Source: Candidatus Hydrogenedentes bacterium CG07_land_8_20_14_0_80_42_17 (GTDB taxonomy: Bacteria > UBA8481). From it: a DNA stretch of 37,696 nt. The DNA lies in assembly GCA_002780065.1 (NCBI GenBank), contig PEWQ01000024.1, positions 1 to 37,696 on the forward strand. The letters run 5' to 3'. A program made the position numbers and the translations under genes. Shown here piece by piece: positions 6,581 to 28,954 of this stretch. Every line of letters begins with the position of its first letter. Position 1 is the stretch's first letter. The notes below the pieces were generated by a model. That model had not been told where the DNA came from, searched no databases, and was given only the letters and a program-made list of their open reading frames with translations.

Positions 6581-7387
6581 TCAATCTATCTTAATTCTAT
6601 TCATTTCGTAATCGTCTAAAATTACATTTTTTGTTTCCAACTTTGATAGTAATTTCTCTGTGTATTTGTTTGCGTTGGATATTTCGATCTTTTTCGGGCA
6701 GGCAATTTCAACCAAATTTTTTTGATGTATTTCTTTAATCAGTTCAGGTATTGATAGATCATTAATTTTTGAGCCTATTGTATTGAATAGAATTTGCATT
6801 CGTTCGAAATCTTCTTTTGTATCGATTGAGAATCGATAATGAGATAGCGAAGGGACAACATTGAGGTGTAATATTTTGAATGAGTTAGGATGTTCCAGCA
6901 CATATTGATCAACGCTGTCAGCCATTTTGTTTCCGTCACCTTTTTCTGAAGAAAGAGTTATAGCCTTTCTTGAAAAAATATCCGCACCAGTGCCTACAGG
7001 AAGTCCGGTTATGCAGGTATAATCTTTTTTGCTTTCAATATGATTTCTAAGCAGGCTCGAGATAATATCAGAATCATGAAGAGGATTGTCGCCCGTCAAC
7101 CTCACTATATAATCTGCTGATTTTGAATTAGCTATTGCACAAAATCTGCCCACTACATCTTCTTCCGCACCGCGAAACACGTCTATATCTGTCACTCGAG
7201 CAATTTTTTCTAACTCGTTGTTTTCTTCATTGGAAGAAGTTGCAAGAATTACTTCGTCTATACCTTGAATTTTTTTTCCGCTCGCTATGACGTGAAGTAT
7301 CAATTGAAGCCCGTCGAGCTTCATCAATGCTTTTCCCGGAAGTCTCTTTGAAGCCATTCTTGCTTGAATTACAGCAATACTTTTCAT
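6581..7387 (-). CDS. SpsF-like cytidylyltransferase/glycosyltransferase-family protein
   Basis: IAVIQARMASKRLPGKAL...GIDEVILATSS...VFRGAEEDVVGRF...VRLTGDNPL, typical of the SpsF family. Confidence 0.88.
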   Translation of the reverse strand: MKSIAVIQARMASKRLPGKALMKLDGLQLILHVIASGKKIQGIDEVILATSSNEENNELEKIARVTDIDVFRGAEEDVVGRFCAIANSKSADYIVRLTGDNPLHDSDIISSLLRNHIESKKDYTCITGLPVGTGADIFSRKAITLSSEKGDGNKMADSVDQYVLEHPNSFKILHLNVVPSLSHYRFSIDTKEDFERMQILFNTIGSKINDLSIPELIKEIHQKNLVEIACPKKIEISNANKYTEKLLSKLETKNVILDDYEMNRIKID

Positions 7388-8280
7388 TTTTTTCTCGCGT
7401 AAATATTTAAATAATTTCCGTAAAATGCCGGCGAAGCAATGTCCCTGAAATTAATCGAATTTTCAATTTTTTTGAAACGAGCGTAAATGTATTTAGAATA
7501 TAAAATAGGGAATTGCAATATATCTCGAATGGAGTTGTATCCTGTTCCGAAATACGGATATTCGCAACAGATTATCTCGAAACCTGTTTTTTCGAGAAAC
7601 CATCGGAGAGTTTTAGAATTGAAGAGATAATTTACTGTTTGATCGTAACTTTTTACATGTCCTCTAAATAGTTTACCCATTACACCATCAGAGTTACTGC
7701 ACATCGTTAAAGCTAATATTCCATTTGCATTCAAAAGTTCATGCGCGCGCTTTATACATTTTGAAGGAGAGTATGTATGGTGGAGTGAAGCTCTCATGTA
7801 TATAACGTCGAATTTTTGAATATCAAAATTCAGTTCTTCGAACTCTCCAAGATATGTTTTTATTCCGAATTGCGCGGCTGTTTGAAGTCCGAATTCAGAT
7901 ACATCACAGCCAAATTTATTCCAATCTCCTTTCATTCCGCAAAGAAAAGTTCCCATGCCGCAACCTACATCGAGAATTTTTCCGCCTTTAACAATTTCAA
8001 ATAGAGATGAATATTCTTTCTGATAGGTTTTGATTCTTGCGTCTTTTTCTTCCTTGGTAAATCTGTTCTTTTGGAGAAAGTATGCAGAGTCGTAAAGCTT
8101 TTTGTATTTGTAGTCTTTATCTTTAATTCTCGGATTCGTCCGTATCAATCCGCAGTCACTGCATCTGGTCAACCTATTACTTCTTGATTGCGCCCAGACC
8201 TCATATTTTTTTGAAGAGCAGAAATCACAATCGATCCCTTCAAATTCTACATTAGGTTCTATTTCCTGAGTAAGTCTCAT
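7384..8280 (-). CDS. Class I SAM-dependent methyltransferase with N-terminal CXXC...CXXC (zinc-ribbon-like) segment
   Basis: CDFCSSKKYEVW...TRCSDCGLIRTNPR followed by ILDVGCGMGTFLCGM and DVIYMRASLHHTYSP; 4-nt overlap with the next gene. Confidence 0.87.
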   Translation of the reverse strand: MRLTQEIEPNVEFEGIDCDFCSSKKYEVWAQSRSNRLTRCSDCGLIRTNPRIKDKDYKYKKLYDSAYFLQKNRFTKEEKDARIKTYQKEYSSLFEIVKGGKILDVGCGMGTFLCGMKGDWNKFGCDVSEFGLQTAAQFGIKTYLGEFEELNFDIQKFDVIYMRASLHHTYSPSKCIKRAHELLNANGILALTMCSNSDGVMGKLFRGHVKSYDQTVNYLFNSKTLRWFLEKTGFEIICCEYPYFGTGYNSIRDILQFPILYSKYIYARFKKIENSINFRDIASPAFYGNYLNIYARKK

Positions 8281-9017
8281 TATATTTTTTTCGACAAAAG
8301 AAATTCTGCGATTTCAAAATCGATCTCAGTATCTATATCGAAAGATCTTTCTTGTGGAGAGACGACGTATCTGACGTCTGTGTTTGAATACTCAACTTGA
8401 TCAATGTTATAGGTCGTAAAGTTTTCGATATTTTCTGTCCATGTAACAAAAGCATTTCCGTTTATGCGATAAACCGGAGGCAACTCCTGCCTGTTCCCCC
8501 AGATTTGATAGCTCGGAACGTTCTCACAAAAATTTATCATTCTGTCATTTTCAGTAGGAATAAAAAATCGATACGGATGATGTTCGCATTCGGTGACGGT
8601 AAAGACCCAGTCGCAATTTGTTTGTATTAACTTTTCTATTGCAGAATCAACATCGTCAATATTTTTCGAGTAACTCGTAGAAAAGAGCATGACCATAATG
8701 TCCGGTCTATAATTTTCCGATTCCTTGAGCTTTTCAAGATAGAATCTATACACGTCGTAGGCGCGGCTTAATGTTTTTGAAAGTTCTTCGGGCCGCTGAA
8801 TAGGAACTTCTGCTCCAAAATCTATCGCGATCTTGGCGATCTCTGGTTTGTCTGTTGCAACAATTGTGCGAGTAATATATTTAGAAGCTTTTGCGATTTC
8901 AATCGTTCTGCCTACCAATGGCTTTCCCCCGGCAATTCTGATATTTTTGTTTTTAACTCCGGTCGAGCCGCCTCTAGCCAAAATCAACGCCATAATATCA
9001 AGCTTATTTTTTTTCAT
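8280..9017 (-). CDS. Acylneuraminate cytidylyltransferase family protein (NeuA-like)
   Basis: ALILARGGSTGVKNKNIRIAGGKPLVGRTIEIA...ATDKPEIAKIA...RPEELSK motifs. Confidence 0.9.
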   Translation of the reverse strand: MKKNKLDIMALILARGGSTGVKNKNIRIAGGKPLVGRTIEIAKASKYITRTIVATDKPEIAKIAIDFGAEVPIQRPEELSKTLSRAYDVYRFYLEKLKESENYRPDIMVMLFSTSYSKNIDDVDSAIEKLIQTNCDWVFTVTECEHHPYRFFIPTENDRMINFCENVPSYQIWGNRQELPPVYRINGNAFVTWTENIENFTTYNIDQVEYSNTDVRYVVSPQERSFDIDTEIDFEIAEFLLSKKI

Positions 9018-10035
9018 TGTTAACCTTCTTATTATTCAATACGAATGTAAATAAATCTGAAAGAAAATTTTTTTTACCATGACCTTCTCTAAACAGCGCG
9101 CAATTTCTGCAACATTCTATACTGTCTCTTTTTCCGGCTCTGTGACCTTTTCTCGATTCTTCAAATTTTAATCCATTCCATATTTCTTTGATAGTTTGAG
9201 AACTTATATCGCCCAACACATTAGTTTCATATTCATCGTTGATGCACATAGGTATTGTTCCGTCCCAGTGAATCATCATTCTTTGATAAAGAAATGGACA
9301 CGGCAGAGAAGAATCCTGAATATTCGGAGCGTCATGGTCGTAATCTTTAAAGAACTGAAACATTATGTCGTCGGAGACTGGCGCCCATTGCTTTATGAAT
9401 TCATCTTCAGCTCCTTTCATGTATTTATCAACGCTAGTGATTCTGATTAGCGGTTTTGTCGCTCCAAGCTTTTTTTTCATTTCATGAAGAGCTGAAACTG
9501 TCGAGAAAATTCTTTCATAAGTCATTGGAGCTCGAATACGGTCATAATCGCTCTTCAATCCATCAACAGAGAAGCTTACGAAATCGAGTCCATTTTCAAT
9601 TATGCTCAACATTATTGTTTCATTCATAAACTGACCGTTTGTTATCATTCCTATTTCGCCGAATTTTTTTCCGCGAAGATATCGCATGAAATCAGGAAAC
9701 TTGGCGTTCAAAAGCGGCTCGCCTCGACCGGTGAATTTTATCGAGTAAACATTGCCTTCGATTTCGTCGATGATCTTTCGAAATGTATCGAAACTCATGT
9801 TTCCTTCTTTAGGTATTTTTTTGTGAGCTCGAAAACACATCGGACAATTCATCTGGCAATGACTGGTTGTTTCGATGTCGATATGAAGAGGATAATCTTT
9901 TCTCATAAAAAGTCTTGGATAGAAATGCCATTGAAAGCGATTAATAGCAAATCCAATTACATTTCGTTGGAGCATCCAGCGACGTAATTCTTTAAGAAAT
10001 TTATTCTGTCTCTTGATATCGTGATTTATCTTCAT
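9004..10035 (-). CDS. Radical SAM / SPASM domain protein
   Basis: CX3CX2C motif (CQMNCPMC), GRGEPLLN, C-terminal SPASM-like cysteines (PCPFLYQRM...PMCIND...CCRNCALF). Confidence 0.9.
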   Translation of the reverse strand: MKINHDIKRQNKFLKELRRWMLQRNVIGFAINRFQWHFYPRLFMRKDYPLHIDIETTSHCQMNCPMCFRAHKKIPKEGNMSFDTFRKIIDEIEGNVYSIKFTGRGEPLLNAKFPDFMRYLRGKKFGEIGMITNGQFMNETIMLSIIENGLDFVSFSVDGLKSDYDRIRAPMTYERIFSTVSALHEMKKKLGATKPLIRITSVDKYMKGAEDEFIKQWAPVSDDIMFQFFKDYDHDAPNIQDSSLPCPFLYQRMMIHWDGTIPMCINDEYETNVLGDISSQTIKEIWNGLKFEESRKGHRAGKRDSIECCRNCALFREGHGKKNFLSDLFTFVLNNKKVNNEKK

Positions 10036-10730
10036 AAGTTATTTTTCTGTGATTCTTCGATGATTTTTAAACTTTCAGCTCCGCAATTGAAAAGAATATC
10101 GACAGAAGACATGCATGGCAAAAAACCTTCATGAATTTGTTTGTAAATCGGATGCTGAAAATTTTGAAAACGAACGGCAATATTATTTTTTTCAAATGCC
10201 GACAGATCGAGATAATTCCGACCGTCTCTTCCGGAAAGATAATTATCAGTTTCCATTTTTTTGCAAATCTCCAGAATCAATTCTGAACCTTTCGATGAGG
10301 TATTGAGTTCGGAAGCCATTATGCATGATCTTTTCAATTCGAAACAATCCATAATAAATTTAATAATACTCATATTAAAATCTACAAGTTTTTCATATTC
10401 TTTGTCTATGACGGAAAGCAGTTTCTGCCCGTAATCCTTCCAGAAGGGCGCTTTACAATAGTTACGTTCAATGCTCAATGCAAATTTATGTTTCCATCGC
10501 GGTTCAGGAGCGATTAGAACTTCATTAATCTTTTGTTCGAATTTACCTTTTGTGACAACAGGAACTACTAGCCAGAGCCAACCTTCTTTAGTTTTGATTT
10601 TGTTTCGATTCTCGAAATATCGCTTTTTGAACTGAACATTATCCAAAAAGACAATCGAGTCAGCCTGCCGAATTTTGTCGATAAGCCCGAGCCACGGCAT
10701 ACATTCAGGCTGAAAAATTGATAAAAGCAT
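10032..10730 (-). CDS. WbqC-like family protein
   Basis: IFQPECMPWLGLIDKIRQADSIVFLDNVQFKKRYFENRNKIKT is the characteristic N-terminus of WbqC-like proteins; 4-nt overlap with the rSAM gene. Confidence 0.88.
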   Translation of the reverse strand: MLLSIFQPECMPWLGLIDKIRQADSIVFLDNVQFKKRYFENRNKIKTKEGWLWLVVPVVTKGKFEQKINEVLIAPEPRWKHKFALSIERNYCKAPFWKDYGQKLLSVIDKEYEKLVDFNMSIIKFIMDCFELKRSCIMASELNTSSKGSELILEICKKMETDNYLSGRDGRNYLDLSAFEKNNIAVRFQNFQHPIYKQIHEGFLPCMSSVDILFNCGAESLKIIEESQKNNL

Positions 10731-10788
10731 GAGAGAATTCTACTATAAAATAAGATTTGCTTGTATCTTTTATGAAGCGGAGGTTTGT

Positions 10789-11820
10789 ATGAGGAATTTT
10801 CAATTTCAAAATGTCATTATTGGCGATGGATTTCCTGTTTGGATTATTGCTGAGATTGGCGGAAATTTTTCTGATTTTCAAACCGGTCGAAAACTTATTG
10901 ATCTTGCTGTTTCTGCCGGAGCTGATGCAGTTAAATTGCAGACGTATCAAGCTGAGACTATAGCGACAAAGAAAGCTGTTTATGATATGCCGAATGTTGG
11001 CAAGGCAAATCAGTATGAACTATTCAAGAAGGGCGAACTCTCTTTTGAACTGCACAAACAAATTTGGGATTACTGCCGAGAAAAAGGCATAACGGTTTTT
11101 TCAACTCCAAGCCACATGAAGGATGTTGAGCTTCTTGAACGGCTTGGCTGCGGAATTTACAAGATAGGTTCGGACGATGCCGTGAACATTCCGTTTCTTA
11201 CAGAGGTAGCGGCTTTGGGAAAACCGATGATTCTTTCAACTGGAATGTGCACGATGAGTGAAGTTAGAGAAAGTGTGGAGGCGATTTTAGGCAAAGGAAA
11301 CTCAAACCTTGCGCTTTTGCATTGCGTGACTAATTATCCCTCATTGCCGGAACATGCTAACTTGAGATGTATAGAAAATATGAAATGCGAGTTTGGTTTA
11401 CCTGTTGGATATTCAGATCATACTGTTGGAATAGAAGTTTCAGCAGCCTCTGCCGCGCTTGGAGCGAACATAATAGAAAAACATTTTACCTACGATAAAA
11501 ATGCGGAAGGCCCCGACCATCAGCTCTCGGCTGATTTTGATGAGCTGAAAGAATTAATTCGTTCTGTGCGAATAATTGAAAAGGCGCTTGGTGATGGAGT
11601 TAAGGCTCCGTCAGCCGGAGAGACGATAACCCGAAGAAACAATCGAAAGAGCGTAGTGAGCAATGTAAATATTCCTAAAGGAACTTTGATTACAAAAGAT
11701 ATGATTGCGATAAAACGGCCGGGTTATGGAATCGAGCCCAAACATTTTTTTGATGTTGTTGGCCGAACTGCGAAGAAAGATATTTCCGCAGAAGAGCCGA
11801 TTTTATGGGAGCAAATTTGA
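10789..11820 (+). CDS. N-acetylneuraminate synthase family protein (NeuB/SpsE/PseI-like) with C-terminal SAF domain
   Basis: WIIAEIGGNF, GADAVKLQTYQ, STGMCTMSEV, GYSDHTVGIEVSAASAALGANIIEKHFT, GPDHQLSAD, SAF-like IPKGTLITKDM. RBS GGAGG supports ATG at 10789 rather than the track start at 10729. Confidence 0.92.
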   Translation: MRNFQFQNVIIGDGFPVWIIAEIGGNFSDFQTGRKLIDLAVSAGADAVKLQTYQAETIATKKAVYDMPNVGKANQYELFKKGELSFELHKQIWDYCREKGITVFSTPSHMKDVELLERLGCGIYKIGSDDAVNIPFLTEVAALGKPMILSTGMCTMSEVRESVEAILGKGNSNLALLHCVTNYPSLPEHANLRCIENMKCEFGLPVGYSDHTVGIEVSAASAALGANIIEKHFTYDKNAEGPDHQLSADFDELKELIRSVRIIEKALGDGVKAPSAGETITRRNNRKSVVSNVNIPKGTLITKDMIAIKRPGYGIEPKHFFDVVGRTAKKDISAEEPILWEQI

Positions 11821-21878: not shown

Positions 21879-22982
21879 CTATCTTTGCTCGTTCAAAAGT
21901 TTAATAATTCGTTTAGCTGTTCTGCCATCCCAAAGTTCAGGTCTGAACGGTACGGATTCTGAGTTCAAAGACTTTTTAATTATTTCAGGAATCTCTTCAA
22001 TTGTTTTAGCAAGTCTGTTTGTGCCTCCATTTTCAACGAGCGTTATAGGACGCTCTGTATTGCTTCTCACTGTCACACATGGTATTCCGGTTACGCAGGT
22101 TTCCTCCTGCAGACCGCCGCTGTCCGTGATTACGAGTCTTGACCTTAATAGAAGAGAAAGAGATTCGAGGTAGTCGAGAGGCTTTGAGATAATCCATTCT
22201 TTTTGACTTTCAATTGCTTTTATTCCGTCAATTCCTAAATTTTCTTTTGTTCTAGGATGCATCGGGAATAGCATTTTTAATCCATATTGCTTTGCAGTAT
22301 TTGTCAGAGCATTGAGAAGAGAGCGGAGGCGTGATGGATTATCTACATTTGACGGCCGATGCAAAGTGACAAGAGCATAAGTTTTTTCTGATAAATTGTA
22401 ATCAGCTAGAGTATTAATTTTCATAGCTTCTTCTTTCATCATATCAAGTGTATCAATCATAATATTTCCGACGAATTTTATTTTAGATTCATCAATGCCT
22501 TCAGTCTTAAGATTCTTTACTGCAAACTTATCCGGGGCAAAAAGAAGATATGATAGTCGATCGGTAATAATTCTGTTTATTTCTTCCGGCATTGTCTCGT
22601 CAAATGAGCGCAAACCCGCTTCAAGATGTGCAAGTCGTAAATTCAGGTTTCTTGCCAAAATCGAAGTTGCAACGGTTGAGTTAACATCTCCAACAGCGAC
22701 GACCCAATCGGGTTTTTCATCCAGGAAAATCTTCTCTGCTTTCGTGATTATTCTTCCAATTTGATTTGAAGGCGTGCCGCCGCTGATTTCTAGTTCGTAA
22801 TTAGCTTTTGGAATGTTAAAGAGTTTAAAGAAGACATCATTCATATTCGATTCGAAATGCTGTCCGGTATGAATTAATATGTGCTCAATATTTGAATGCA
22901 GAGAAATTTCACGCAATAGCGGCGAGATCTTCACGAAGTTTGGTCTTGCGGAAACAACTGTTAATATCTTCATACAGCTCAA
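21879..22982 (-). CDS. UDP-N-acetylglucosamine 2-epimerase (WecB/non-hydrolysing type)
   Basis: HTGQHFESNMNDVFF, VVAVGDVNSTVATSILA, HLEAGLRSFDETMPEEINRIITDRLS, DSGGLQEETCVTGIPCVTVRSNTERP. Confidence 0.94.
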   Translation of the reverse strand: MSCMKILTVVSARPNFVKISPLLREISLHSNIEHILIHTGQHFESNMNDVFFKLFNIPKANYELEISGGTPSNQIGRIITKAEKIFLDEKPDWVVAVGDVNSTVATSILARNLNLRLAHLEAGLRSFDETMPEEINRIITDRLSYLLFAPDKFAVKNLKTEGIDESKIKFVGNIMIDTLDMMKEEAMKINTLADYNLSEKTYALVTLHRPSNVDNPSRLRSLLNALTNTAKQYGLKMLFPMHPRTKENLGIDGIKAIESQKEWIISKPLDYLESLSLLLRSRLVITDSGGLQEETCVTGIPCVTVRSNTERPITLVENGGTNRLAKTIEEIPEIIKKSLNSESVPFRPELWDGRTAKRIIKLLNEQR

Positions 22983-23770
22983 ATCAATCCTTTGTATTCA
23001 CCGCCGTCAATTTGTATCACGGTTCCATTGACGTATCTTGATTCTGGAGAAGCAAGGAAAAGAACTGCGTTGGCAAAGTCATCAGGAGTTGCAATAAAAC
23101 CCGATGGAATACCGCTTTCGATTCTGTTTCGCATTTTTTCAGGAGATATTTTCTCTTCCTTTGCATCAAGTTTAATTAAATTTTCGAGTCTAGAAGTTGC
23201 AATTGCTCCGGGACATAATGAATTGACTGTTATTCCATCCTTTGCAACCTCGCGTGAAAGAGTTTTAGAAAAGCCAAGAATCGCGGCTCGAATTGCGTTT
23301 GAAAGCCCCATTCCTTCCGAAGGCGATTTTGCAAGAATAGACGTAATGTTAATTATTCTACCAAATTTATTTTGACGCATAATTGGAACTGATAGTCTAG
23401 TCATTCTTACAACACTTAGAAAGAGCGATTCAAATGCCGACTTCCAATCTTCATCGGATAATGTATCGAGTCTTCCCGGTTTTGGTCCACCTGTGTTATT
23501 GACAAGTATCTCAACCGAACCGAAAGTGTTGATAGCTTCATCAAAGGCATTTTTTATATCTTCGAATCGCGATAGGTCGCATTGAACAGTAAGTATTTTT
23601 GAAGCGCATTCTCGTATGAGCTCTTGTTCTGCGCGTTTGAGTTCATCATTGTTTCGCGCCAGAATTGTTACGTTGGCCCCTGAAACAGCTAACGCTTTTG
23701 CTGAAGCAAACCCCATTCCTTTCGATGCCCCGCATACAATTGCAGTTTTTCCGGTTAGATCTACTTTCAT
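22979..23770 (-). CDS. SDR-family oxidoreductase (atypical active site)
   Basis: GKTAIVCGASKGMGFASAKALA cofactor motif, ILVNNTGGP, C-terminal YVNGTVIQIDGGEYKG; YxxxK replaced by SNAIR. Confidence 0.92.
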   Translation of the reverse strand: MKVDLTGKTAIVCGASKGMGFASAKALAVSGANVTILARNNDELKRAEQELIRECASKILTVQCDLSRFEDIKNAFDEAINTFGSVEILVNNTGGPKPGRLDTLSDEDWKSAFESLFLSVVRMTRLSVPIMRQNKFGRIINITSILAKSPSEGMGLSNAIRAAILGFSKTLSREVAKDGITVNSLCPGAIATSRLENLIKLDAKEEKISPEKMRNRIESGIPSGFIATPDDFANAVLFLASPESRYVNGTVIQIDGGEYKGLI

Positions 23771-23794
23771 CTTCTTTATCCCTTTATCAATTTA

Positions 23795-23947
23795 TTGAAC
23801 CACTAATAAACATTATAAAACAAACCACTAATAAACACTAATATACACTAAAATTTTTATTTATTTATTTTAATAAATTTTTATAAATAATTTGTGTTGA
23901 TTAGTGTCCATTCGTGGTTCTTTTTTATTCTTGTCCATTCGCGATTA
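23795..23947. repeat. Nested long inverted repeat / palindromic element
   Basis: Left arm ACCACTAATAAACACTAATATACAC (about 23824-23848) pairs with right arm GTGTTGATTAGTGTCCATTCGTGGT (about 23894-23918) with a few mismatches. Outer partial copies at 23797-23816 and 23930-23947; AT-rich centre. Confidence 0.7.
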
Positions 23948-23953
23948 TTTTTA

Positions 23954-24970
23954 TTACTCTTCGAACATGTCAGGCTTGATAATAACATCTTCAGGTATTT
24001 CTTTTGACGTTTTTTTTCCTATTAGTTTTTTGTAATCAGTCGGAGCAATTCCGGTTCCCGGCAATTTATAAGTCAACAATTCTTCAGTAATTATAGTTCC
24101 TTTTGGAATTGCCTTTTTTGAAACTATGCTTTTTCTTTTAAATGTGCGGGTTGGATCTTCATCAGAAGTTTTTTTTGCGATTAAAGGTTTGAGCGCAGAT
24201 TCGGATTCCCGAATGTGTCTCACCATCGTCGAGAATTCATCGGGTTCCAGCGAAACCATCCAGTCGTCTCCGCGCAAAGCTCTGTTCAGTGTTATATGTT
24301 TTTCAATGACCTTTGCTCCTCGAGCAACAGCCGCAACTGACGGAATAATATCGGCAGTATGATCGCAATAACCCATTACCCCGCCGAATTTTTCGTTAAT
24401 AGCATTCATACGAGTAAGGTCGGCTTCTTCTATTGGAGTAGGATACCGTGTGTTCGTGTGATAGATACACCACTCTTCGAGCCCGTTGGCGCGCATTGAT
24501 TCGAATGCCGTTTGTATTTCATCGAAGGTGGCGGAACCTGTTGAAAAGAATATGGGTTTTTTTGAAGCCGCGCATCGCTCAAGCATTGGAAGATTAGTAA
24601 TATCTCCGGAACACAGTTTTACAAAGTCTATTCCTATTTGAAGAGCTAGTTCAAGACGGTCAAAATCCTCTACATTCAAAGAAAAAGCTAATCTAAATTT
24701 ATTCGCTTCGGCTTTTAAAAGCATTAATTGTTCTGTCGTTAATTCGCAATCTTTTAAATAAGCTACTCTTGCATCATTGTAAAATGATTTGATGACATAA
24801 GAATCTATCGGAGTGTGTTGGAAGGTAACGGCATTAGCGCCGCATTCAGCCGCGATTTTAATTATCTTCAAAGCATTTTCAAAACTATCTGCATGATTGT
24901 TTCCATTTTCAGCAATGATAAAACACGGTTCGTCTTCACCGACAAGTTTCGATCCGACTTTAAATTTCAT
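23954..24970 (-). CDS. Divergent N-acetylneuraminate synthase family protein (second NeuB paralog) with SAF domain
   Basis: CFIIAENGNNHADSFENALKIIKIAAECGANAVTFQ, FSTGSATFDEI, GYCDHTADIIPSVAAVARGAKVIEKHITL, SAF IPKGTIITEELLTYKLPGTGI. Confidence 0.9.
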   Translation of the reverse strand: MKFKVGSKLVGEDEPCFIIAENGNNHADSFENALKIIKIAAECGANAVTFQHTPIDSYVIKSFYNDARVAYLKDCELTTEQLMLLKAEANKFRLAFSLNVEDFDRLELALQIGIDFVKLCSGDITNLPMLERCAASKKPIFFSTGSATFDEIQTAFESMRANGLEEWCIYHTNTRYPTPIEEADLTRMNAINEKFGGVMGYCDHTADIIPSVAAVARGAKVIEKHITLNRALRGDDWMVSLEPDEFSTMVRHIRESESALKPLIAKKTSDEDPTRTFKRKSIVSKKAIPKGTIITEELLTYKLPGTGIAPTDYKKLIGKKTSKEIPEDVIIKPDMFEE

Positions 24971-25618
24971 TTATGCAAGGTATCTCACAAGCTGGAAAGC
25001 CTCAGCGTGAGCTACTCCGACCCTTTGGCCATTGTTTTTTGTTTCATTGAACCAGAACTGAAGCCAATCTTCTCCAAATTTTTTTATCTCTGCTTCGTGT
25101 GCTCGAATGGCTTTCATTTTTATTTCGATGAATTTGGAAATATCGACAAAGTAATTTGCATTGAACAGTTTTGTGTTCATGTAAAGATTGCTTTGATACA
25201 TAAAAATTCTTTGGATTTTTCTACCGGCATTCATTGTCGCTCTGCCGATTGCCTGATGGTCTTGATGAACGTCGCTATCCCAATGTGTATAGATAAGATC
25301 AATTTTATTGGAATCGATTATGCGGTTAATCTCTTCTATTAAATCGAATTCAAATTTAACCTGTTTCGTTTCTCTATTGAGACATAGCATTTCATAACCG
25401 ATAATTCGAGCAGCTTTTTTTCCTTCTCTGAGAGCAGTTTCCCGGGCTCGCATCAATTTTCCGTTGTAGTCCGTATATTTGGAATGTGTGACGATAAGAC
25501 CGATTACTTTGTCACCGTTTTTTATATGCTTTGCAAGAGTGCCTCCGCATCCGAGTTCAATGTCGTCGAAATGAGCTCCAATTGCCAGTACGTTGAGATC
25601 ATTTTTTTTCACGGTCAA
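24971..25618 (-). CDS. PIG-L / LmbE-like deacetylase
   Basis: NVLAIGAHFDDIELGCGGTLAKHIKNGDKV and YTHWDSDVHQDHQAIGRATMNA zinc-binding motifs; stop directly abuts the NeuB2 start (TAA-ATG). Confidence 0.93.
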   Translation of the reverse strand: MTVKKNDLNVLAIGAHFDDIELGCGGTLAKHIKNGDKVIGLIVTHSKYTDYNGKLMRARETALREGKKAARIIGYEMLCLNRETKQVKFEFDLIEEINRIIDSNKIDLIYTHWDSDVHQDHQAIGRATMNAGRKIQRIFMYQSNLYMNTKLFNANYFVDISKFIEIKMKAIRAHEAEIKKFGEDWLQFWFNETKNNGQRVGVAHAEAFQLVRYLA

Positions 25619-25668
25619 ACCTCCGTCTCTAGGTGTTACAGAGTGTAGTAATACAATAATTTAAAATC

Positions 25669-26817
25669 TTATTCCTGCGGTCGGAAAATAGAACTTCCAA
25701 TATGCGCTAAGTTTATTATTTTAACATTGATACTGCCATATTTTTTATTGAATGATTCTTTGACATTATTTGAAACTAATATATTTCTACCATGCGGATA
25801 TTTTTTTCGGAACACTATTAAATTTTTCGGATCAAAGTTATTATAATCCCATTTGCATTCAATTGCAGTTAACGATTTATTTTTTTCTAATTTTATAAAA
25901 TCAATTTCATGACCTATTTTGTCACGCCAGTAATATAGCTTGAGTGATTGAGAATATGCAATAAGTTCGCTGATTACCAAATGTTCAAAGAGTATTACTT
26001 TATCTTCATTATGAAGCTCATTCCATCCTTTGTAATATGCTACGAAACCTGTATCAAAAGCATACACTTTAGGCGCTGATATTATCTCTGATGATTTTTT
26101 TGTAGAATACGGACGGACAATATGAACAATCAATGTATTTTCTAGTATAGCGAGATAGTTAGCAATAGTAGTACGACTTACCTCACATGGTGTAGAAAAC
26201 TTATTAGCTTCAAAAATTCCGCCGCTCTTCGTAAATAATAGTTCAATGAAACGCTGAAACGAATTCTTCTGCTGAAGCCGAAAGAGTTCTTGTATATCTT
26301 TTGCCCAGAAAGAATCCAACCATTCCTGATAATCTGAATCAGTAATTCCTTTACTGAGGAAAAACGGAGGCAGACCTCCTTTAAGTAATCGATATTCTAA
26401 ATTATTATTTTTAAAATCAACCAAATCGTTTGAAATCATAGGTGTCAACCAGAGATTCTTTTTTCTACCGGTTAAAGTATCCTTAAATTTTTTAGAAGCA
26501 CCAAGCGTTGATGAACCTGTAGCAATAATTTTTGTTTGAGGATAATAATCTGCCGCTATTTTTAATATTTCAGAGGGATTAGATAAGCGATGAATTTCGT
26601 CAATAACCACTTTTTTACCTTTTATATGATCTAAGAATAGTTCGGGGTCTTGCATCCTTATTCGTATTCTAGGAAGTTCACAATCAAAATATTCGACGCC
26701 GGAAATGCTTTTGCAGAGATAAGTCTTTCCTACTCTTCTAACCCCCGCAAGCCATATAATGTTTTTTTCTTTCCAATATTTATTTACTAATTTCAACCAA
26801 AATGTTCTTTTTACCAT
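25669..26817 (-). CDS. AAA family ATPase with C-terminal DUF4143 (PD-(D/E)XK-like) domain
   Basis: Walker A AGVRRVGKT, Walker B KKVVIDEIHR, LTGRKKNLWLTPM, C-terminal GHEIDFI...TAIECKW. The track start (26865) lies inside a palindrome; MVKRTFWLKL at 26817 is the more natural start. Confidence 0.9.
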   Translation of the reverse strand: MVKRTFWLKLVNKYWKEKNIIWLAGVRRVGKTYLCKSISGVEYFDCELPRIRIRMQDPELFLDHIKGKKVVIDEIHRLSNPSEILKIAADYYPQTKIIATGSSTLGASKKFKDTLTGRKKNLWLTPMISNDLVDFKNNNLEYRLLKGGLPPFFLSKGITDSDYQEWLDSFWAKDIQELFRLQQKNSFQRFIELLFTKSGGIFEANKFSTPCEVSRTTIANYLAILENTLIVHIVRPYSTKKSSEIISAPKVYAFDTGFVAYYKGWNELHNEDKVILFEHLVISELIAYSQSLKLYYWRDKIGHEIDFIKLEKNKSLTAIECKWDYNNFDPKNLIVFRKKYPHGRNILVSNNVKESFNKKYGSINVKIINLAHIGSSIFRPQE

Positions 26818-26839
26818 ATTATATCTTATAGCATAAAGT

Positions 26840-26873
26840 TTTACTAAATGCAACTCTGTTTGCATTTAGTAAA
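26840..26873. promoter_or_regulatory. 14-bp perfect inverted repeat upstream of the AAA/DUF4143 gene
   Basis: TTTACTAAATGCAA (26840-26853) - CTCTGT - TTGCATTTAGTAAA (26860-26873). Confidence 0.7.
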
Positions 26874-26926
26874 TATAATACTAGAGCTTTTGAAAGACGC
26901 ATTTCTTAGTAATGAGATTGGCTCTA

Positions 26927-28954
26927 TCAAACCCTTTCTACTTTTTCCCGCCAAATTCTTGTCATATCTGTCTTCATGAGTATCCGGCCTATTCCTGTCG
27001 GAGTCGCGCCGAAGCGTTCGATATACTCGTCTGCGATTCGCATTTGTTCTTCGGTAAACGAAAATTTGAATCTTTGCGGAAAATTAAATTTGAAAGCTTT
27101 AATCTTATTTTCATTGCCTCTTTGATACCAAGCGGCTATATCGTAATTCAATTCAATCTCGGGATTATCTAAATTTCTCTTCTCACCCCAGATGTTGTAA
27201 ACCCTTGCGGCGCAGAAACGATGCAGTTGATCAATAACTTCGTGAGGAATGCTTAGAATTTTTTTTGCAGTAGCGAATACAAAATTACACCATTCAGTCA
27301 TTATGAGATTTGACATAGCTACATGTGTCTGGATTAAATTCGCACCTAATTCTCCTGAAAGCAATTTATTGTAGTTCTCTTCTTTTTTTATGTAATCGAG
27401 AAGTTCTTCTTTCGAAGCCCATAATTCCTCTTTAGTTTTCTGATTAAACGAAGCGACAATCTTTTTAATTTCGTCTGAAGCCGAATCAATTTCTTCAACT
27501 AAAGCCATAAAAAGTGGGAAGGTGGATAAATTTTGTTCACGGAGAAATTTAAACAAAGGTCCGAACGGTTTTCCGTTATTTACTGCGTTTACAATCAGGT
27601 GGAAGAGTCTCAACTTAAGATAGTCTTCAAATGAAAGAGAGTTTGTTGATGTGACAACCTCTTCAATTTCTACTGAAATAATTCCATCAGAAAGCTTTCC
27701 AAAGTCGCGAGGCAGAATTCTAAAGTGTGAGTGAATACCATATTTATTTCTCATTCGTTCGGTTGAAAGCTCAGTTCCTTCCAGCAACATGCAGGTATAG
27801 GTAGTCACTTGATCAACTCCAAGATCGATTATTTTTGAGATCGACTCGATATGACTGCTGAAATCTTCTTCAGGGAGTCCGAGAATTAATTCGGAGATAG
27901 TTGTTATTCCTTCCCGTTCGCATTCGTCTTTAATATTCATCATAATAGAAAAGTCTATGTTGTCGCGCTTTATTGCCTTTAAAACTTTCGAATCCATGGA
28001 TTGAACAGAAAGCCAGAGTTTCATCGAGCCTTCAAGCATCTTCACAGCTTCTGCGACCTGTTCTTTTTTATTTTTTCCGGCGGATGCAAAAATAAATTTC
28101 GGATATCCGGATCTTTTTTTTATATCGGCAATATGCCTGCAGATATCGAGGTCGCGGTCGTACATACCAAAATTCGGATCTGCAATAAGAAGATTCGATA
28201 CACGGTTTCCGACGTGTGCGGCAATGTAATCCAACTCTTCAAGAACTCTATCGAGCTCGAAGAAACGAACGTGAGAAATATCCGGATGCCCTTCATGACA
28301 ATATGCGCACGTGAAAGGACATCCTCTATTGGTTTCAATCATGGGACTGAGACGATTGTCGAAGAAAGGATCGAGAAGTCCTGCAAGATAAGGAGAAGGA
28401 ATTTCATTCAGATTTTTTCGAAGAAGTATTGCAGAGCCTTCAATGATTTCATTCTCTTCATTTCGAAATATTGTTCCAGGCAAAGATGTTTCAAATACTT
28501 GTCTTCTTTCCAGTCCGTTTGAAAGAACTCTTTCGAGTATAAGCGAAAATGACTCTTCACCTTCGAGAATAACATGCGCATCGATCTCGGGATTTTCTTT
28601 CATAAACTGAATTCTCTTTTTTTGCTCATGTGAAATGTTAGGTCCGCCCATAATTTTTAATGTGCGTTGAGAAATATTTGAGACAAGTTTGAAAAATTCT
28701 ATTCCAATGTTTCTATTCCACGGATAATTGCTCATTCCTAAAATATCAGGAGGGTTTTTTCTGATTGCATCTTCAAGTTCTTCGATATATTTGAAGAGTT
28801 TCATTTCGATATTTTTTCCGAAACGCTTATTTGCGTAAGAAGCTACGAGCCCAATATTGAGCGGATAAGCTTCAGTAGCGAGTGATAGAGTTGTGTAAGT
28901 AAGATCAGCGAGAAAAATTCGCAAAGGTTTCGAGCGCATAAAAAAAAGTGTCAT
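26927..28954 (-). CDS. Cobalamin-binding-type radical SAM protein
   Basis: N-terminal B12-binding-like region (PLNIGLVASYANKRFG...PDILGMSNYPWN), CX3CX2C motif NRGCPFTCAYCHEG, ISELILGLPEED. Confidence 0.9.
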   Translation of the reverse strand: MTLFFMRSKPLRIFLADLTYTTLSLATEAYPLNIGLVASYANKRFGKNIEMKLFKYIEELEDAIRKNPPDILGMSNYPWNRNIGIEFFKLVSNISQRTLKIMGGPNISHEQKKRIQFMKENPEIDAHVILEGEESFSLILERVLSNGLERRQVFETSLPGTIFRNEENEIIEGSAILLRKNLNEIPSPYLAGLLDPFFDNRLSPMIETNRGCPFTCAYCHEGHPDISHVRFFELDRVLEELDYIAAHVGNRVSNLLIADPNFGMYDRDLDICRHIADIKKRSGYPKFIFASAGKNKKEQVAEAVKMLEGSMKLWLSVQSMDSKVLKAIKRDNIDFSIMMNIKDECEREGITTISELILGLPEEDFSSHIESISKIIDLGVDQVTTYTCMLLEGTELSTERMRNKYGIHSHFRILPRDFGKLSDGIISVEIEEVVTSTNSLSFEDYLKLRLFHLIVNAVNNGKPFGPLFKFLREQNLSTFPLFMALVEEIDSASDEIKKIVASFNQKTKEELWASKEELLDYIKKEENYNKLLSGELGANLIQTHVAMSNLIMTEWCNFVFATAKKILSIPHEVIDQLHRFCAARVYNIWGEKRNLDNPEIELNYDIAAWYQRGNENKIKAFKFNFPQRFKFSFTEEQMRIADEYIERFGATPTGIGRILMKTDMTRIWREKVERV

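Follow-up and report, generated by a model that had tools for sequence, protein, structure and literature searches.

A NeuB paralog with a rebuilt active site is encoded at positions 23954 to 24970 (minus strand) of a 37,696-nucleotide contig of a Candidatus Hydrogenedentes bacterium (PEWQ01000024.1), the whole of which was analysed here and is called the window. Judged from alignments with solved NeuBs, the pocket that surrounds phosphoenolpyruvate (PEP) is remodelled in this protein, referred to as T-type NeuB, and the metal-binding and catalytic residues are retained. We think it fairly likely that the protein is an active metal-dependent ulosonate (2-keto-3-deoxy sugar acid) synthase from a rare clade with a rebuilt PEP-facing pocket.

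The open reading frame is intact and codes for 338 amino acids, which form a NeuB barrel followed by a C-terminal SAF (antifreeze-like) domain. Membership in both Pfam families is clear, with 195.7 bits for NeuB (PF03102, cut-off 22.1) and 41 bits for SAF (PF08666, cut-off 21). At the level of equivalogs, the protein stays below the thresholds for N-acetylneuraminate synthase (TIGR03569, 274 bits versus 399.65) and for the pseudaminic acid synthase PseI (TIGR03586, 199 bits versus 340.25). The second NeuB of the window (10789 to 11820, plus strand), a lysine-bearing paralog of the IGGNF type with 31% identity to T-type NeuB, reaches 353 bits against TIGR03569 and is likewise below the cut-off for both equivalogs. 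For structural comparison we used an AF2 model built with a 34-row alignment (mean pLDDT 94.3) and set aside a single-sequence AF2 model (pLDDT 46). The closest solved structure was NeuB/SiaC of Neisseria meningitidis (NmNeuB, 1XUU and 1XUZ; TM 0.91/0.89 to 1XUU), which has the same two-domain NeuB plus antifreeze-like fold.

Residue numbers below refer to NmNeuB unless a protein position is given and were obtained via alignment to the PDB sequences of NmNeuB (1XUU), Bacillus subtilis SpsE (1VLI), Campylobacter jejuni PseI (8H2C) and Leptospira borgpetersenii NeuB (6NCS); pocket contacts in T-type NeuB were assigned by homology to these solved NeuBs. Threonine 49 (codon ACC, 24824 to 24826, minus strand) pairs unambiguously with lysine 53 of NmNeuB, which we take to be a PEP contact. 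In a sample of 179 NeuBs from genomes, plasmids, viral contigs and the PDB, which was drawn by similarity to T-type NeuB and is no unbiased census, this column holds lysine in 174 sequences, and the five exceptions are the window protein and its four clade mates. The lysine is a conserved feature and no formal criterion of the NeuB family; a literature search on K53 returned nothing usable.

The original prediction, made from the DNA letters with the lysine-bearing paralog as its canonical reference, had described two active-site substitutions, lysine to threonine and a metal-binding histidine to tryptophan, in an otherwise intact fold and SAF domain. The first substitution is confirmed by the alignment and by the invariance of lysine outside the clade, and the model and its match to 1XUU agree with an intact fold. 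The TGG codon at 24260 to 24262 (minus strand) was also read correctly and encodes W237. The alignment places W237 on Ile248 of NmNeuB, directly after Asp247 of the GPD motif, so that this position cannot be a metal ligand of NmNeuB. The ligands are, as we assume, H215 (the histidine of SDH or CDH) and H236 (the histidine of EKH), a pair that reportedly binds the metal in NmNeuB. Both have counterparts in T-type NeuB, namely H204 in YCDHT (24359 to 24361, minus strand) and H225 in EKHIT (24296 to 24298, minus strand), and the spacing of 21 residues equals that in NmNeuB. His215 is listed in the NmNeuB active site (PMC6795526). Loss of the metal site through W237 was accordingly rejected. The proposal of an altered metal requirement is not supported either, since T-type NeuB retains both ligand histidines and NmNeuB itself has isoleucine where the tryptophan stands.

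Column 248 is variable in the 179 sequences (histidine in 136, glutamine in 18, various others in the remainder). The original prediction had also considered that threonine and tryptophan might be common in normal synthases. For tryptophan this is true in part, as by sequence it accompanies a retained K53 in the Leptospira NeuB 6NCS and in two further proteins (L008 and L078); for threonine it is not, with lysine in all 174 NeuBs outside the clade.

Beyond the two positions noted originally, T-type NeuB differs from NmNeuB by T56H, T110N, F112E, C182T, S213C and R314L and by a shorter N74 loop. In all five clade members, K53 is replaced by threonine or serine, T56 by histidine, T110 by asparagine or cysteine, F112 by glutamate or isoleucine, G131 by cysteine or valine, L180 by tyrosine, C182 by threonine, S213 by cysteine and residue 248 by tryptophan, tyrosine or phenylalanine, and the stretch including N74 is deleted. 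E25, N29, H30, Q55, K129, S132, S154, Y186, H215, E234, H236 and D247 are kept in all five; the histidine pair, E25, Q55, K129, E234 and D247 are thus common to NmNeuB and the window protein. The S213 column (C202 in the window protein, 24365 to 24367, minus strand) is almost as strict as that of the lysine, with serine in 170 of 179 sequences and cysteine solely in the five clade members. The residues around PEP in 1XUZ are 110, 129, 131, 132, 182 and 184, and it is the PEP/C1 region that Neu, Leg and Pse enzymes have conserved (PMC7371886), so the clade differs where NeuBs normally do not. R314, tested as a mark of N-acetylneuraminate synthases, is a leucine in the SAF domain of the window protein (L303, 24062 to 24064, minus strand) and in its closest relative L098; the other three members keep the arginine. 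In NmNeuB, Arg314 helps to position the N-acetyl group of ManNAc, and R314A is inactive while R314K is active (PMC6795526). Several other NeuBs (L011, L012, L016, L074, L107, L108, L115 and others) carry serine at position 314 within a KSP motif, and a number of these read SGH for SDH, which makes them another group without the catalytically important arginine.

SpsE of B. subtilis is a NeuB family member that keeps K53, S213 and R314 and has no equivalent of the threonine/cysteine/aromatic signature, and PseI of C. jejuni shares the fold and the catalytic core but also retains the lysine, Ser213 and Arg314. The Leptospira NeuB, like the window protein, has tryptophan at position 248 (GIDW) and a comparably short loop, but keeps K53, T110 and S213 and lies outside the clade. 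A sequencing error behind the substitutions was excluded because identical residues are found in L098/L040, whose NeuB is only 52% identical to the window protein.

The original prediction had suggested a search for a clade with the threonine/tryptophan signature, and such a clade was found, with threonine or serine at the lysine position and tryptophan, tyrosine or phenylalanine at position 248. Its five members are the window protein, L040/L098 from genome G144 (threonine), L039/L097 from genome G156 (serine), L029 from an Omnitrophota MAG and L030 from a Nanoarchaeota MAG. G144 and G156 were reached via an Omnitrophota draw; two members were added by profile searches of about 750 genomes from the phyla to which the Omnitrophota and Nanoarchaeota matches belong. 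The phylum of the window was represented by two genomes in the searched set. All five share the motifs [TS]FQH, G[YF]CDHT, YHTN and D[WYF]xVSLEP, and they form one clade even when the signature columns are removed (SH-aLRT 99 with 88 sequences; bootstrap/SH-aLRT 100/99 with 45 sequences, the bootstrap not being fully settled). As far as the trees and alignments tell, this clade is a rare gene lineage common to distant bacteria and an archaeon. It consists of group A (window and L098), with NVE, tryptophan and R314L, and group B (L029, L030 and L097), with CVID, tyrosine or phenylalanine and the arginine kept. Each of the five genomes also encodes at least one Lys-type NeuB. The sister group (L008, L078, L079 and L090; weaker support, 96/71) consists of lysine-bearing proteins in which HGxQxxPT replaces HCxxxYPT. 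Three of these four have an aromatic residue, tryptophan or tyrosine, at position 248, so the aromatic residue may have arisen before the lysine was lost.

The threonine form is orders of magnitude less frequent than the lysine form. Searched as a DNA pattern, it gave three stretches in 84,980 genomes, two of them true NeuBs, and no match in 2.9 million viral contigs; the same pattern with lysine matched 66 of 386 diverse bacterial genomes, and a reversed-pattern control of that scan had no match among the matches listed. This is a rough figure because different genome sets were scanned for the two forms and because the pattern misses part of the NeuBs: a near-identical lysine pattern recovered 14 of the 27 NeuB loci collected by then, and two clade members fall outside the threonine pattern, one having serine and one lacking the glycine at 44. 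A single-protein scan for close relatives in the 84,980 genomes and the viral contigs yielded none that was confirmed, and additional clade members were found neither in the 386 diverse bacterial genomes nor in 49 genomes from the same class as G144. L028 (1377 to 2117), which the pattern scan picked up in an Ignavibacteriae MAG, was set aside as a clade member, since it is a short, divergent NeuB-like protein of 246 amino acids without SAF, with threonine at the lysine position. Its neighbours were identified by eye as a thiamine-diphosphate-enzyme-like and a Gfo/Idh-like open reading frame.

T-type NeuB is part of a sugar-acid locus that has genes in common with L098. Directly upstream, with a gap of 0 bp, lies a PIG-L (LmbE-type) deacetylase gene (24971 to 25618; 65% identity to the L098 copy), followed by a B12-binding radical SAM protein of the KedN5-like type (26927 to 28954; 51%), and downstream an SDR oxidoreductase (22979 to 23770; 53%), all on the minus strand and assigned by domain matches. 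An AAA/DUF4143 ATPase gene of lower G+C content (0.32) is inserted between the PIG-L and radical SAM genes (25669 to 26865), and the A/T-rich intergenic segment that separates T-type NeuB from the SDR gene (23771 to 23953) contains the repeated and inverted motifs CACTAATAAACA and TTAGTGTCCATTCGTGGTT. A second cluster of the window comprises, on the minus strand, an SpsF/KdsB-like cytidylyltransferase (6581 to 7387), a methyltransferase (7384 to 8280; 45% identity to the L098 copy), a PseF-like cytidylyltransferase (8280 to 9017; 54%), a radical SAM/SPASM protein (9004 to 10035; 55%) and a WbqC-family protein (10032 to 10730; 39%), and on the plus strand the lysine-bearing NeuB, which shares 50% identity with the second NeuB encoded in L098.

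Altogether, the window and L098, which belong to different phyla, have ten genes in common at 39 to 65% identity, namely T-type NeuB, with its identical T/N/E/C/W/L signature, and nine further genes. This two-NeuB module forms one cluster in L098 (2060 to 11970) and two in the window (6581 to 11820 and 22979 to 28954). Its presence in both genomes suggests horizontal transfer, as far as gene content and similarity can indicate it. SpsF-like cytidylyltransferases are encoded in all five loci; the window copy belongs to the other NeuB cluster, at a distance of 16 kb, whereas in all four relatives the homologs adjoin T-type NeuB or lie near it. In B. subtilis, SpsE acts with the SpsF cytidylyltransferase and the SpsG hydrolase in one legionaminic acid pathway (PMC7439481), which serves as a model for reading these loci. 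The group B loci encode an aldo/keto reductase (3/3), a nitroreductase-like protein (2/3) and an SpsF-like cytidylyltransferase (3/3). The 18 kb stretch of L097 has no NeuB other than the serine-type gene, which neighbours a cytidylyltransferase gene. In the Nanoarchaeota locus (L099), T-type NeuB is immediately followed by a 255-amino-acid protein (9927 to 10694) with no Pfam or NCBIfam match.

Part of this context is not specific to T-type NeuB. A megaplasmid of Neorhizobium galegae (L187, 3132 to 8633) carries consecutive genes for radical SAM/SPASM, IGGNF-type NeuB, SpsF-like, PseG-like, WbqC and PIG-L proteins and no T-type NeuB; no description of such a nonulosonate-type locus on a rhizobial megaplasmid was found. 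Hence the IGGNF pathway has at least a share in PIG-L, the SpsF-like protein, WbqC and the radical SAM protein, and PIG-L is no specific partner of T-type NeuB. The idea of PIG-L as a dedicated partner that explains R314L is weakened accordingly, the Neorhizobium homolog being 43% identical; a literature search for NeuB/PIG-L pairs returned nothing usable.

How could such a protein work? As an active synthase, T-type NeuB would join a three-carbon enol donor to an aldehyde sugar: the metal would activate the aldehyde, the enol donor would attack, water would add and phosphate would leave, as in NmNeuB. The donor would most simply be PEP, which must then be held differently, since K53 is lost and neutral or new polar groups stand at positions 110, 182 and 213; the new His56 might possibly supply the lost positive charge. 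The sugar pocket is changed too, and the aldehyde is probably unusual as well; in group A, where R314 and the N74-carrying loop are lost, it would not be a plain N-acetylmannosamine type sugar. The product is probably an unusual acidic sugar destined for the cell surface; it would be activated with CMP and enter a surface glycan alongside what the ordinary NeuB makes. The altered substrate put forward in the original prediction gains support, as a change of either substrate or chemistry, from the robust clade, the changes at the conserved PEP site (PMC7371886) and R314L (PMC6795526). Its other suggestion, a non-synthase role, is disfavoured: every clade member retains K129, E25, Q55, E234, D247, Y186 and both histidines, and each of the five loci includes an SpsF-like cytidylyltransferase gene.

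A more conventional reading, possible but in our view rather unlikely, is lineage drift in an ordinary nonulosonate synthase that carries out the usual reaction on a known substrate (ManNAc, diacetamido-mannose or diacetamido-altrose), with another residue in place of K53. The conserved fold, metal site, K129, E234 and D247 would fit, NeuBs differ from one another at positions 184, 248 and even 314, and the locus resembles a normal nonulosonate locus. However, K53 and S213 hardly vary in the 174 other sequences at identities down to about 27%, at least six pocket changes occur together in one clade, and every genome with a clade member already has an ordinary NeuB. At the other extreme, the clade might perform a reaction unlike that of every characterised NeuB, with a three-carbon donor other than PEP or otherwise leading to a new acidic sugar, in parallel to the ordinary nonulosonate and exchanged between bacteria and archaea; we regard this as distinctly unlikely.

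A changed donor taken by itself, that is, a three-carbon compound other than PEP or an aldolase-like reaction and with it a new class of NeuB chemistry, appears more improbable still. The changes do cluster around the PEP half of the site as delineated for 1XUZ (PMC7371886), and the extra reductases of the three group B loci could be read in this sense, but K129, S132 and S154 of the PEP site are kept together with the metal and acid/base residues, and with a cytidylyltransferase as partner the usual 2-keto-3-deoxy acid would be expected as the product. Least probable of all is a catalytically dead scaffold or regulatory paralog that pairs with the ordinary NeuB: the loss of the invariant lysine, in the window also of an arginine whose alanine mutant is inactive in NmNeuB (PMC6795526), and the Lys-type NeuB of all five genomes would suit it, but distant lineages have retained all other catalytic residues, the replacements (cysteine, threonine, histidine, aromatic) are specific and conserved instead of random, and L097 has no other NeuB in its stretch.

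For the NeuB family, a natural clade that lacks K53 and has compensating-looking changes offers a test of the role of this lysine in PEP-dependent ulosonate synthases, a residue present in all other sampled NeuBs, from the solved Neu, Leg and Pse enzymes to copies on phage contigs. The signature also provides a motif and a warning for annotation, as proteins bearing it should not be called N-acetylneuraminate synthases by default. Finally, the clade points to an undescribed acidic sugar that may be part of the surface glycans of uncultured bacteria and archaea.
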